Assembly (NCBI GenBank): GCA_026014735.1
Contig: JAOZHT010000002.1
Location: 496,001 to 560,000, forward strand
DNA from: Candidatus Bathyarchaeota archaeon
Lineage (GTDB): Archaea > Thermoproteota > Bathyarchaeia > Bathyarchaeales > Bathycorpusculaceae
Direction of reading: 5' to 3'
Length of the DNA stretch: 64,000 nucleotides
A program made the position numbers and the translations under genes. Positions 20,292 through 25,176 of this stretch are shown piece by piece. Under the pieces are notes generated by a model. The model searched no databases. It was not told the DNA's origin and was given only the letters and a program-made list of their open reading frames with translations. The first letter of the stretch is position 1. Every line of letters starts with the position of its first letter.

Positions 20292-21044
20292 CTATAACTT
20301 TTTCCCATCCGACTGCTTTTCTCTAAGAAGCTCCTTTGCCCAACCCGCGATGAATTCCACGTTGAGTCTGGTGAGGTAAACAAGGGTGGTTAGGCTCAGG
20401 TTGGAGAGCGCTGCGTAGGGGGTGAAGATGAAGCGTGCTGCCATGCGCCTGGCGAGTTTGTAGAGGCTAAAATGCCCGTAGCGCCGATAGGATATGCCGA
20501 TGGTGACGTAGTTTTTGGAGGTTCCCAGATGCGTGGCGCCCAGAAAAGGCAGCACCACCCAGCGGTACCCTGTCTTCTGCACGTAGCGTTTGAAAACTTG
20601 GTCTTCGCCGAAAAAGAGCCTGGGCGGATTGTAGCCTTCCATGAGTTTTCGGCGGATGAGGATGTTGTTGATGTGGGGGTTAGTGTCGAGTTTGCTGAGG
20701 TTATATACTGTGCCTACCACGCGTTCGTAGGCTGCTGCATGCGGGTTTTTGTGGACGGCTACGGTTCCGATTGCGCCGACTTTGGGGCCGATGGCGCAGC
20801 TGACTTTCTCCAGCCAATCCTGCGGCAGCAGCATATCATCATCCACCATCGCCACCCACTCGGTCTTCGCCGACAATACCCCATGTTTACGCGCCACAGA
20901 AAGCGGTTTCTCATGGGTGTTGATGACTTGGCCTGCAAGGGGCATAGCGCGGATTTGTCGTAGCAGCTGCGGGTTGGCTTGGTCGCGGCTGGGCACCACG
21001 AAGTCGGCTTTGAAATCCTTGGTTGGGCAGGATGGCATAGGCAA
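20292..21044 (-). CDS. Family 2 glycosyltransferase
   Basis: A GT-A fold transferase of 250 residues. FVVPSRDQANPQLL starts the nucleotide-binding fold and the metal-binding DxD is in WVAMVDDDMLLPQDW near residue 70. FFGEDQVFKRYVQKTGYRW near residue 146 carries the acidic residue expected of the catalytic base. The C-terminal region is amphipathic with one weak hydrophobic segment, consistent with membrane association. Copy B of the dispersed repeat lies 60-150 bases upstream and its TATA box is oriented to drive this gene. It is followed by ino1 after 52 bases. Confidence 0.8.
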   Translation of the reverse strand: MPMPSCPTKDFKADFVVPSRDQANPQLLRQIRAMPLAGQVINTHEKPLSVARKHGVLSAKTEWVAMVDDDMLLPQDWLEKVSCAIGPKVGAIGTVAVHKNPHAAAYERVVGTVYNLSKLDTNPHINNILIRRKLMEGYNPPRLFFGEDQVFKRYVQKTGYRWVVLPFLGATHLGTSKNYVTIGISYRRYGHFSLYKLARRMAARFIFTPYAALSNLSLTTLVYLTRLNVEFIAGWAKELLREKQSDGKKL

Positions 21045-21206: not shown

Positions 21207-21809
21207 CTAGGCGGTGCGTTTGGCGCCGCAGTTAGGGCAGAAAGTGTCCAGCTGATTAAACAGGGTTTGGCAGTAGCGGCAGGGAATCTTGACGATGACT
21301 TCCTTTATGATCTGGGGTTGACTGGCAACAGGGGGCGGCGCCACCACCTGGAACTCGAAGGTATCCGTGGCCAGGTCGGGGCGTCCATCCACCGCGACGA
21401 CGGCCTTGATTTTCCAAACCAGGCTCTGCCCGATGCCGCTAAAGGTCAAGCGGGAAGCCGGCGGAATCAACAGGTTAACTGGGAAACTGCGGTTTTCGCC
21501 CCTTGCAAAATGCGCGGGTCCATGCAGGGTAGGCCGAAGAGAGAGGAGAACCGCGGACTCGGTGGTCTGGTGGGGAATGGAGCGGCGGAGATTAGCGTCA
21601 TAGACGGAGCGGATGACCTGCGCGGTTTCGACGCATTCAACCTCTAGGCGGACCTCGGTGCAGGCAAAATCCTCCTCGGCACTAAACGCCAAAGACCCCG
21701 TCAGGCTCTGCCCAACCGGCACCGCCCAACTGTCCAATCTAAGCTGAAGATTGCCATCTGGAACCGTAACCTTATCCGTTAACTTCTTAAGGAAACCCAA
21801 ATACCCCAC
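21207..21809 (-). CDS. Arrestin-like protein with C-terminal zinc ribbon
   Basis: A 200-residue protein. Residues about 10-155 form a beta-rich domain like the arrestin/Spo0M fold: GNLQLRLDSWAVPVGQSLTG, then EVRLEVECVETAQVIRS, and FPVNLLIPPAS followed by LVWKIKAVVAVDG. The C-terminus ends in a zinc ribbon with CRYCQTLFNQ and CPNCGAK. Spo0M-type proteins act as scaffolds in bacteria; archaeal versions have no known partner. Cytoplasmic, with no signal peptide. The upstream region carries a C- and A-rich stretch and a TATA-like TCTATAAAG on the minus strand at about 21890-21898. Confidence 0.7.
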   Translation of the reverse strand: MGYLGFLKKLTDKVTVPDGNLQLRLDSWAVPVGQSLTGSLAFSAEEDFACTEVRLEVECVETAQVIRSVYDANLRRSIPHQTTESAVLLSLRPTLHGPAHFARGENRSFPVNLLIPPASRLTFSGIGQSLVWKIKAVVAVDGRPDLATDTFEFQVVAPPPVASQPQIIKEVIVKIPCRYCQTLFNQLDTFCPNCGAKRTA

Positions 21810-21940
21810 CCTGATAGGTTCTGAGGCGCCGAAACAATTTAAAGATAACCCCCAACAACCCCAAAAAAACCCCCCAGCAGCCCCACCCCTTTATAGACCC
21901 AGTGCTTCATGTCCCATTACATATCATTAAGCATTATAGG

Positions 21941-21962
21941 TTTGGACTTAAAAAAATCCAAA
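21941..21962 (-). terminator. Inverted repeat with T-run downstream of MinD-like gene
   Basis: TTTGGA and TCCAAA arms enclose a ten-base loop. Read on the minus strand, a seven-T run lies in the loop, about 150 bases after the stop of the MinD-like gene. It may end that transcript. The rest of 21810-22110 is AT-rich and holds nothing else I can support, apart from the promoter of the arrestin-like gene. Confidence 0.35.
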
Positions 21963-22110
21963 TTGATTTTACTCAAAACAGTAACGTGCTAAGTGAATCA
22001 GGAAGAAAATACCTACCAAGAACGAATTAGGAAAAACATCCAAACAGCTGAAATACTAAAAATGAACTGATAGGAAAGGGTAGTCAGCTAGTTTTCAGAC
22101 ATTAGAACAA

Positions 22111-23163
22111 CTATCTCCGTCTAAAGAAGCTGTAAGCTATAATAATAATGCCAATAATCGCATAGCTATAACCTAAAGTTATTATTGGATTTTCAAAAAG
22201 TACTTGAGGGTTTGTACCAAATAGCACAGCAAAAATACCCGTAATAAGCATAATAATACCTAATGCTTGGTACATCATGCTCTTTTTTGAAGTAGCTGGT
22301 CTCAGTCTTCGATTAATAAATTTGATTTCGCCCTCGTCAAAATCTAATATTCTTAAATTTTCGCTTTTAACTTCTTCTTTAAACAAATCAGCTTTATCTT
22401 TTAACAAATCGTAGGCAAGCAATTTCAACTTCTGTGAAAAAACACTTTTAGGAAATTCATCAGTTACAAACATAACTTCTCCAAAACTCTCAAAAATCTG
22501 ATATTCAAATGGAATAAATGCCATAATTTTAAGGTTTTTAAGTAGGCCCCCAATTTTATTTTCATAATAATCATCTAGGTTACCAAAATTAAATTTTTTA
22601 GGTATTTTGTTAAGCAGAAAATAAAATTGTTTCTCATTACCATATGCGTTTTGTAAATAAGATCTAAAGTTTAGAGTACCATCCCAAGTTACAGGGTCGG
22701 CCTCACTAACAATTACAGTTTTATCTGCTATTCCCGCTATACCAATTGATAGAGCATGGGGACCAGCCTCAGAGTCTATGATAATCACTTGTGGGCCGTA
22801 TTTCTCGATGATTTCATTTATTATTTCTTGAAGTATTGCTTTCCAAGTTAAATAATCAACAGGTAATTCCTTCAAATTTAAAATCTGACCCGTTGCAGAC
22901 GAAGGAAGGAATAGAACCTTTCCAATCTCAACTAGGTTTATATCTTTGTATTTTTCAAGAACCAGATTTTTCAAAGTTGAATTATCCTTAATCGAGGGCT
23001 GCAAAAGAGCAGTTGCGCCTCTGTTTAATAAATCACAATCGAGTAAAACTGTCTTAAGTCCAGATGTTGCCGTCAAGTTTGCGAGATTTACAGACAAAAG
23101 GGTCTTTCCAACGCCACCTTTGCCGCTTACAAAAGCAACTACAGAGCATGTTTTAGACTTCAT
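22111..23163 (-). CDS. MinD/ParA-like ATPase with membrane anchor
   Basis: A 350-residue P-loop ATPase of the MinD/ParA class. It has the deviant Walker A motif SGKGGVGKTLLSVNLA at residue 14, the second strand VLLDCDLLNRGAT, and VIIIDSEAGPHALSIG in place of the usual IDxPPG switch. Uncommonly, residues about 290-345 hold two transmembrane helices (MYQALGIIMLITGIFAVLFG and LGYSYAIIGIIIIAYS), so the ATPase is fixed in the membrane. Its AT-rich codons differ from the flanks. It overlaps the upstream small membrane-protein gene by 11 bases. No ParB, Mrp or flagellar gene is near. Role unknown; possibilities are membrane patterning or a defence-type island. Confidence 0.8.
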   Translation of the reverse strand: MKSKTCSVVAFVSGKGGVGKTLLSVNLANLTATSGLKTVLLDCDLLNRGATALLQPSIKDNSTLKNLVLEKYKDINLVEIGKVLFLPSSATGQILNLKELPVDYLTWKAILQEIINEIIEKYGPQVIIIDSEAGPHALSIGIAGIADKTVIVSEADPVTWDGTLNFRSYLQNAYGNEKQFYFLLNKIPKKFNFGNLDDYYENKIGGLLKNLKIMAFIPFEYQIFESFGEVMFVTDEFPKSVFSQKLKLLAYDLLKDKADLFKEEVKSENLRILDFDEGEIKFINRRLRPATSKKSMMYQALGIIMLITGIFAVLFGTNPQVLFENPIITLGYSYAIIGIIIIAYSFFRRR

Positions 23164-23500
23164 TATTTTTCTCTCCGTATTTGGTTGTTTTTTCCTCTAT
23201 CTTTTTTAGAGAATCAGTCCTTGACTTCTCATCCTTGTGTGAATCATAAAAGCACATCGCCAATATGATAATTATCATTATAGCAAAAGATACTGCAAGA
23301 AGAACTATTTCGAGTGACTGATTTGTTGCACTAACAAACGCGAAAATAAAAATCAGCGAAACTATGCATAAACCTGCTATTCTATAACCAGGAGGCGATT
23401 TCGATACACCTTCAGCAAGAGTAAGGAAAGCTCTGCCGATGCTCTCCCAGCCTCTGGCAAGAGTCTTCCATGCAGATTCATCACTTGGCGTTTTAGGCAT
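23153..23500 (-). CDS. Small membrane partner of MinD-like ATPase
   Basis: A 115-residue protein of unknown family. The N-terminal part (SAWKTLARGWESIGRAFLTL) is a probable amphipathic helix, followed by two transmembrane helices (about 41-58 and 64-84) and a charged, Lys/Glu-rich C-terminal tail. The AT-rich composition matches the MinD-like gene, whose ATG lies inside its 3' end. The overlap indicates a co-translated pair that probably assembles in the membrane. The gene pair is bounded by about 180-300 bases of AT-rich DNA on each side. Confidence 0.65.
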   Translation of the reverse strand: MPKTPSDESAWKTLARGWESIGRAFLTLAEGVSKSPPGYRIAGLCIVSLIFIFAFVSATNQSLEIVLLAVSFAIMIIIILAMCFYDSHKDEKSRTDSLKKIEEKTTKYGEKNNEV

Positions 23501-23682
23501 TCATTTCACTCTAGATAGATGAAATTAGATTGCTATGATACCTATTTAACTCTAACTTGTTTTGCATTTTCCACTCTAAAGTGTTTCATTAAATAGAGAC
23601 TTGAGTTTTTACTGATCCCCTTTTCGCTCAACTTGAAGGATAATAAGTTTTTAACCTTAGTAATAGTTTGGTTTGGCCGCCA

Positions 23683-25074
23683 CTACATGTTTAGTATTTT
23701 TGTTACTTTTTGTGCGGCTCGTTTCTGTCCTTTCCCCGTTATCATGCCTTTCTGTATGCCGTTTAGCAGCTGCAGTATCATGCCCTGCTTGACGTGCTCC
23801 ACCATCTGCTGCTCGGATATGCCGGGGAGGTGCATGCAGTTACCGATTTTGACGTTATACGCCGCTATGCCGTGTCGGGCGGCGATGTCGTGGAGTTTTG
23901 AGCCGATGATGGGGTTGGTTATGCTCCAGCTGATGTATTCGATGAGGTTTTCGCGTAGGCACATTTTGGCGAAATCCAGCGTGTTTTGGACTTCCGCCGG
24001 CGTTTCGTATTCGAGTTTGCCGTTGGTTTCCCAGGCGTTGTAGAGCATCAAAAAGCCGTAGACTTTTATGCCGTGCGCCCGGAGGATCTCGAGGGTGCGC
24101 TGGTTGTCGGCTTGCGATGCGTTTTTGCCGATGCCCCGCAGGACGCGGTCGTTGGCGGATTCGAGTCCGATGTGGGTGAGCCACACGTGGGTATCATGCA
24201 GTTTCTGTGCGAGTTCGTCGGTCATTTTGTCGGCGCGCAGATTGCACTGGAACACCATGCCGCGGAGCTTGAGCTTCTGGATTTCAGTGAGCGTCTCCAT
24301 GCACCATTTGATGTCCACGTTGAAGGTGTCGCTGCGCAGATAGATCTCGCGTATGCCCCTGCCGTAGAGGTAGGCGACTTCCTCGGCGATGTTTTTGGGG
24401 CTGCGCTGGCGTATCCAGGGCTTCTCGAGTTTCCACACGGGGTTGCTGCAGTACGTGCAGTAGTTGGGGCAGCCGCGGATGGGCAAAAGATAGGCCATTC
24501 GCCGTTTGCGGCTCACCGCCACCTCGTAGTCCTCGAAGTTTATCATTTCCCAAGCGGGGAAAAAGTCGATGTCTGCCAGCAGCGGACGCAGACCGTTGTC
24601 TTTTTGGCGGTTAACCGTGCCCACGATGCCGCTTATGGGCGCATCGGTCTGGATGGCTTTGATTAGTTCAGTGAAGGTTTCCTCGCCCTCGCCTCGAACG
24701 CACACTTCGACGGCGGTGTTTTCCAGCACATCTTTGGGGTCGATGGTGGGATGCGCTCCGCCTGCAACCATCAGCATCGGCAGCCCCAGCGCCTTCACTT
24801 CTGCGATGGTCTGGAAGGAGAGGTCGCGTCTGGGGGTAGTGAAGGATATGGCGTAAACGTCGGGTTTTATCGCCTTGACTTTCTCTAGGTGCTCCTGAGG
24901 GGAAAGGAAGGGCTCCAGATAAGTGAACTCGACGTTTTGCAGCCTTGGCTTGGCGTAGCCGATGAGGTAGAGGATGCCTAGGTTCGGTGACTCTGTGACG
25001 GCTTCGCCTTTGGATTCTCTGCCGAAGGGGGGGTCAGCGAAGACCACTTTGAGTTTTCTTTGCTTGGATGCCAT
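23683..25074 (-). CDS. B12-binding-domain radical SAM enzyme
   Basis: A 463-residue protein of the B12-dependent radical SAM class (BchE/P-methylase type). Residues 1-150 form a Rossmann-like cobalamin-binding domain (KVVFADPPFGRESKGE, then MLMVAGGAHPTIDP). The radical SAM core has the 4Fe-4S ligating motif GCPNYCTYCSNP near residue 180. The start at 25074 (MASKQRK) is supported by a TATA-like box at about 25123-25130 on the minus strand, too close for the longer start. Such enzymes methylate or rearrange unactivated carbons; the substrate is unknown. It lies 3' of a glycosyltransferase gene on the same strand, suggesting a role in lipid or glycan modification. Confidence 0.85.
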   Translation of the reverse strand: MASKQRKLKVVFADPPFGRESKGEAVTESPNLGILYLIGYAKPRLQNVEFTYLEPFLSPQEHLEKVKAIKPDVYAISFTTPRRDLSFQTIAEVKALGLPMLMVAGGAHPTIDPKDVLENTAVEVCVRGEGEETFTELIKAIQTDAPISGIVGTVNRQKDNGLRPLLADIDFFPAWEMINFEDYEVAVSRKRRMAYLLPIRGCPNYCTYCSNPVWKLEKPWIRQRSPKNIAEEVAYLYGRGIREIYLRSDTFNVDIKWCMETLTEIQKLKLRGMVFQCNLRADKMTDELAQKLHDTHVWLTHIGLESANDRVLRGIGKNASQADNQRTLEILRAHGIKVYGFLMLYNAWETNGKLEYETPAEVQNTLDFAKMCLRENLIEYISWSITNPIIGSKLHDIAARHGIAAYNVKIGNCMHLPGISEQQMVEHVKQGMILQLLNGIQKGMITGKGQKRAAQKVTKILNM

Positions 25075-25176
25075 GTTTTGTTGCTTCACCGAAACCGACT
25101 CTATACCATCTTCCATGCGCAGGTATATATCTTGCTGCCCAACGTCCAAGCCGCCCCAAACCATAGCGCGATGCAT

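Follow-up and report, generated by a model that had tools for sequence, protein, structure and literature searches.

Between a radical-SAM gene and a family-2 glycosyltransferase gene of a Candidatus Bathyarchaeota archaeon, we find an accessory module of two horizontally acquired genes. They encode a MinD/ParA-type ATPase, ending in a predicted membrane hairpin, and a small membrane protein. The pair is real, was acquired horizontally and is so far unique, and host protection is our leading guess at its role. The window analysed here is a stretch of 64,000 nucleotides; the features of the insertion site are collected in Table 1.

Table 1. Features at the insertion site (window positions; a dot marks a feature without strand).
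Feature	Position	Strand	Remarks
Family-2 glycosyltransferase gene	20292..21044	-	Conserved; other boundary of the slot
Gene for a 200-aa protein	21207..21809	-	C-terminal zinc-ribbon-like CxxC motifs; second insert of the slot
AT-rich 3' intergenic part of the insert	21830..22110	.	From the ATPase stop to the 200-aa zinc-ribbon-like gene
MinD/ParA-type (deviant Walker A) ATPase, 350 aa	22111..23163	-	Predicted C-terminal two-helix membrane hairpin; end FFRRR
115-aa membrane protein	23153..23500	-	Predicted amphipathic N-terminal helix (6-33), two TM helices, charged helical tail
AT-rich leader	23501..23682	-	From the radical-SAM stop codon to the first gene of the pair; sequence reading
B12-binding radical-SAM gene	23683..25176	-	Conserved; one boundary of the slot; homology to 17 relatives ends at its stop codon

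Judged by its homology, the ATPase reading frame is genuine beyond doubt. The protein scores above the cut-off of the Pfam models AAA_31 and CbiA, and its motifs can be read directly: Walker A SGKGGVGKT, A' LLDCD and switch II IIDSEAG. With its deviant Walker A, A' aspartate, switch II and predicted fold, it belongs to the MinD/ParA superfamily of SIMIBI P-loop ATPases. An AF2 model (pLDDT 70.8), computed from an alignment with resident MinD-like sequences, shows a MinD/ParA fold over ~260 residues, followed by a low-confidence linker at 265-291. Foldseek searches with this model retrieved FleN, FlhG, MinD, Soj and McdA in alignments that extend over approximately the ATPase domain; FleN was also the top PDB match by sequence, in a list that includes MinD and FlhG (E about 1e-7 to 1e-3). 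At the C-terminus, two TM helices are predicted to start near residues 295 and 325, in accord with the helices at 293-315 and 326-349 in the model. Positive residues stand at both edges of this hairpin (RRLRPATSKK before, FFRRR after), so both of its ends are expected to face the cytoplasm.

The small protein is predicted to start with a helix whose hydrophobic moment is about 0.7 over residues 8-25, followed by TM helices that begin near residues 38 and 63 and are separated by a loop of only ~8 residues. Its AF2 model (helices 6-33, 37-59 and 63-114) agrees with this topology. A run matching the length of its open reading frame was obtained in only 32 of 3000 first-order shuffles. No family in Pfam, NCBIfam or PADLOC matched it above noise, and Foldseek gave no fold match (E at least 1.6). 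Weak Pfam and NCBIfam matches, QacH and ABC2 among them (E about 0.002), were attributed to TM composition, and two distant genomes gave matches to frames of 55 and 72 aa (28-35% over the TM helices, E about 5e-4 to 8e-4) that were likewise dismissed as noise.

The 3' end of the small gene shares 11 bases with the start of the ATPase gene, the likely order of translation being small protein then ATPase, with the small gene upstream. GGAG precedes the ATPase ATG. In the sequence of the leader, GTTAAATAGG reads as a putative TATA-like stretch, and the ATG is preceded by GAGTGA. Scans for bacterial-type promoters and terminators stayed at chance level, and a search for RNA families found none. 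The GC content of the pair is 0.32-0.36 against 0.53-0.57 in the flanks, and GC3 drops from 0.69-0.73 in neighbouring genes to 0.27 and 0.33. The first-pass annotation of the window agrees with these results on most points: both reading frames, their overlap and the complete Walker A are exactly as it gave them, and two C-terminal helices on the ATPase, a two-helix small protein with an amphipathic N-terminus and a composition sharply unlike that of the flanks had all been proposed there. It had also called switch II a variant; the motif is present, but it is not very unusual, DSPAG being the MinD form of switch II, from which DSEAG differs at one residue. Elsewhere, at the window edge, an AT-rich ORF of 203 aa (65-676) without a Pfam or PADLOC match is a candidate foreign gene.

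Comparison with related genomes delimits the insertion. The radical-SAM gene has an orthologue in 18 genomes, its own genome counted, and in most relatives nucleotide homology to the window ends at 23682-23684, at the radical-SAM stop codon; the pair begins immediately past it. The gene order from radical-SAM to family-2 glycosyltransferase is kept in the genus. Ten relatives (G004, G012, G013, G014, G015, G016, G022, G023, G024 and G028) have an empty slot, with a gap of 60-90 bp to the glycosyltransferase, and others carry different tenants. The 4.2-kb slot of G018 contains an N6/N4 methylase and a CfrBI-type endonuclease (Type II restriction-modification, R-M; genes confirmed by PADLOC), VapB and a PIN toxin; 2 kb with a MazE/AbrB-like gene occupy that of G006, and a DUF1428 gene that of G009. 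A MazE/AbrB-PIN (VapBC-like) pair follows the radical-SAM gene in G011, where the boundary glycosyltransferase was not found within the 18 kb read. The order of the two boundary genes was not seen in the stretches read of G031 and G029. In its own right, the run in G018 (L036:5046-8389, G018:C9), CfrBI-type endonuclease and methylase followed by VapBC, forms a compact archaeal defence cassette.

The AT-rich pair shares the slot of its own genome with the 200-aa protein, which is of normal composition and has no Pfam match. In G007 a homologue of this protein (68% aa identity) sits at the same place in the slot, next to a NosD beta-helix protein in the place of the pair; the 200-aa protein is separate from the pair. 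PIN toxins were observed in two occupied slots, one of which bears the R-M system as well, against an expectation of ~0.05 PIN genes per about 10 kb of inserts, a rough figure since its base rate is the 15 PIN genes of the pair's own 2.91-Mb genome and accessory slots are generally enriched in such genes. For that genome (G000) itself, 15 PIN-domain genes in 2.91 Mb amount to a high toxin-antitoxin load. Because relatives have the site either vacant or occupied by other genes, defence genes included, the pair is one among several interchangeable cargoes of a variable chromosomal slot for accessory genes that often takes defence or toxin-antitoxin genes, and the closeness to glycosyltransferases belongs to the site, not to the pair.

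The pair was present in 1 of the 32 genomes of its genus, and it was found neither in the 31 others nor in 29 further relatives searched. Across the class (257 genomes), no relative with matching architecture was recovered: the best ATPase matches are MinD-like proteins of 25-30% identity whose alignments end near residue 250-260, and none of the 32 best matches checked has the C-terminal hairpin. One of them, L093, exceeded the TM threshold at residues 214-217, which lie within the ATPase domain and so form no hairpin, and a query with the hairpin alone returned only TM noise from the same 257 genomes. In about 400 genomes of the phylum, the query itself was the only ATPase match at 1e-12, and no match to the small protein was credible. 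Searches of 85,000 species genomes, viral contigs, phages and plasmids yielded nothing past superfamily level; the species genomes were scanned with short exact peptide or DNA patterns that distant relatives would escape, and outside the phylum the pair is therefore 'not found' rather than shown to be absent. Scanning genome and viral collections for exact peptides of both proteins, or of alignments, revealed no relative, and neither did one scan whose patterns had been relaxed with artificial variants placed around presumed motifs of the family. Seven loci matched a DNA pattern for [hydrophobic]D[ST]EAG, 18 residues and [ST]E[AP]xP; all were rejected, superfamily ATPases occurring at one locus only and being CooC-like there. 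Plasmids gave weak ATPase matches, the best to a CpaE-like ATPase adjoining a Tad pilus. In a tree the query ATPase falls outside the resident ATPases on a long branch, and its join with the plasmid CpaE-like protein, where two long branches meet, was not trusted.

Taken with the foreign composition and the empty or otherwise filled site, this absence from 31 congeners lends good support to the first-pass view of the pair as transferable. A search for co-occurring pairs across archaea, which the same annotation had proposed, turned up no second pair. No partition or secretion system adjoins the pair, and no search recovered the small protein by itself.

As a rule, MinD/ParA ATPases are soluble switches whose binding to membrane or DNA is reversible. 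The ATPase described here resembles MinD, FlhG (FleN) and ParA in fold, deviant Walker A, A' aspartate and DSxAG-type switch II, at about 20% identity over about 250 residues. Unlike them, it has a predicted integral C-terminal TM hairpin where they bind DNA or carry a reversible amphipathic tail, and no MinC/E, ParB or FleQ partner lies near it. All of its NCBIfam matches fall under the cut-off, and none of the curated subfamilies tested fits. It scores 41 and 31 bits against the 202 and 213 required by the cell-division MinD models TIGR01969 and TIGR01968, which it also fails by its tail, a TM hairpin rather than an amphipathic one, and 31.7 bits against 180 for the ParA partition ATPase, with no adjacent ParB-like ORF. 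The best curated match, ahead of minD_arch (41 bits against 202), is NF047398, the KGGVGR conflict-associated ATPase (residues 7-165, E 3.6e-14, 53.5 bits against a cut-off of 90), yet our protein carries the canonical GKGGVGKT, with the Walker A lysine and not R. Among curated defence families, PADLOC reported only PDC-M28B (2.3e-9) and weaker P-loop matches, and no two-gene system; the PDC-M28B match is unspecific, as a resident paralogue matches too (5e-7).

The nearest proteins in the phylum are the resident SYKGGTGKT MinD-like ATPases of the class, at 27-30% over the ATPase domain, most of which stop near residue 260. This class-wide family (e.g. L076:4957-5736) carries SYKGGTGKT and FDTSPGLQYSSINAI motifs, was near a small winged-helix gene in two loci read and stays under the cut-off of the NCBIfam models tried. 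The nearest relative within the genus, at 27%, is a divergent SYKGGSGKT MinD-like ATPase (L078:4036-5607, G007:C1); 60 bp downstream of it lies a gene whose product has a TIR domain, a TRASH-like domain at the C-terminus and weak ThsB/SAVED-TIR matches. In bacteria, MinD/ParA-like domains predicted to be inactive are reported to serve as effectors in NTP-dependent conflict systems (PMC7159879). We suspect these to be of the KGGVGR type; the ATPase described here differs from them in its intact active site and in having no such neighbours. The small protein is like the small two-TM effectors of abortive infection, for instance CRISPR-linked membrane effectors, in size and topology; there is no sequence match above noise, no sensory domain and no Cas gene, and the likeness is one of resemblance only.

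Overall, we tentatively propose as the best explanation that a membrane-tethered ATP switch controls a small membrane partner, most plausibly for host protection. The ATPase would be a MinD/ParA-fold switch held permanently in the membrane by its predicted hairpin, and its cytoplasmic domains may dimerise with ATP, as the intact Walker A, A' and switch II suggest. The target of the switch would then be its translationally coupled neighbour in that membrane, the small protein, whose assembly or amphipathic helix it perhaps controls. The ATPase might sense or gate, and the small protein, once a virus or plasmid triggers it, might disturb or seal the membrane. Motifs, fold, topology, the 11-base overlap, GGAG, foreign composition and absence in 31 congeners count for this explanation. 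The weakest step is the role in host protection, which is drawn from the other tenants of the slot. Defence, which the first-pass annotation had raised as a possibility, gains indirect support from the Type II R-M and VapBC-type genes in the same slot of sibling genomes; on the other side, no curated defence family specifically matches the pair, the NosD (G007) and DUF1428 (G009) tenants indicate a slot that is not purely one of defence, and the searched data hold no second copy. We regard with some doubt the narrower proposal of a new two-component archaeal defence or conflict module in which a hairpin-bearing MinD/ParA switch gates a small two-TM effector.

The frequency of ParA/MinD ATPases on plasmids, the weak plasmid matches, the AT-rich foreign composition and the one-genome distribution would also fit a fragment or passenger of a plasmid or virus, the ATPase serving partition, positioning or membrane remodelling of that element. 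We consider such an origin possible if somewhat improbable: phage, plasmid and viral-contig collections gave no match past superfamily level, the inserted stretch lacks ParB-like, integrase, replication and capsid genes as well as tRNAs and clear flanking repeats, and being an integral membrane protein is unusual for a ParA. An unlikely alternative, patterning having also been raised in the first-pass annotation, makes the ATPase a MinD/CpaE/FlhG-like positioner for spatial patterning or a surface structure, and the small protein its partner in the membrane or its activator. FleN, FlhG and MinD are indeed the closest solved structures, and the best plasmid match stands beside a Tad pilus; nevertheless, the identified neighbours include no pilus, archaellum or division gene, in keeping with the first-pass statement that no ParB or flagellar gene is near, and the pair's non-conservation in the genus speaks against a core positioning role. 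MinD patterning, moreover, needs a cycle on and off the membrane that a permanent TM anchor would block.

Selection itself could be lacking, the pair being orphan cargo without a selected function or a decaying gene pair. Its occurrence in one genome, with no second copy to reveal purifying selection, is compatible with this; we think it quite improbable given intact frames and ATPase motifs, overlapping genes and a ribosome-binding-like sequence before the ATPase start. Least credible to us, and disfavoured, is a regulator of surface polysaccharide akin to the CapA/CapB or CpsC/CpsD adaptor-kinase pairs. The order of a small two-TM protein and then a P-loop ATPase, flanked on either side by glycosyltransferases, recalls such pairs, but the neighbouring cluster is conserved and exists without the pair in ten relatives. 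Models of BY-kinases (CpsD/EpsG/Wzc) score far under cut-off (eps_fam 23 bits against 108), the FFRRR end has no tyrosine-rich tail or cluster, and the short loop between the TM helices of the small protein leaves no room for a Wzz-like outer domain.

The comparison defines a genus-wide insertion slot, and its list of tenants could yield further candidates. No ParA/MinD ATPase with a C-terminal TM hairpin and a small two-TM partner is described in the open-licence papers searched. If a membrane-tethered switch for host protection is the right reading, the MinD/ParA fold would gain a new use, permanently anchored in the membrane beside a coupled partner, and archaea a defence candidate; it would mean immunity at the level of the membrane by this ATPase family, a use undescribed in that literature.
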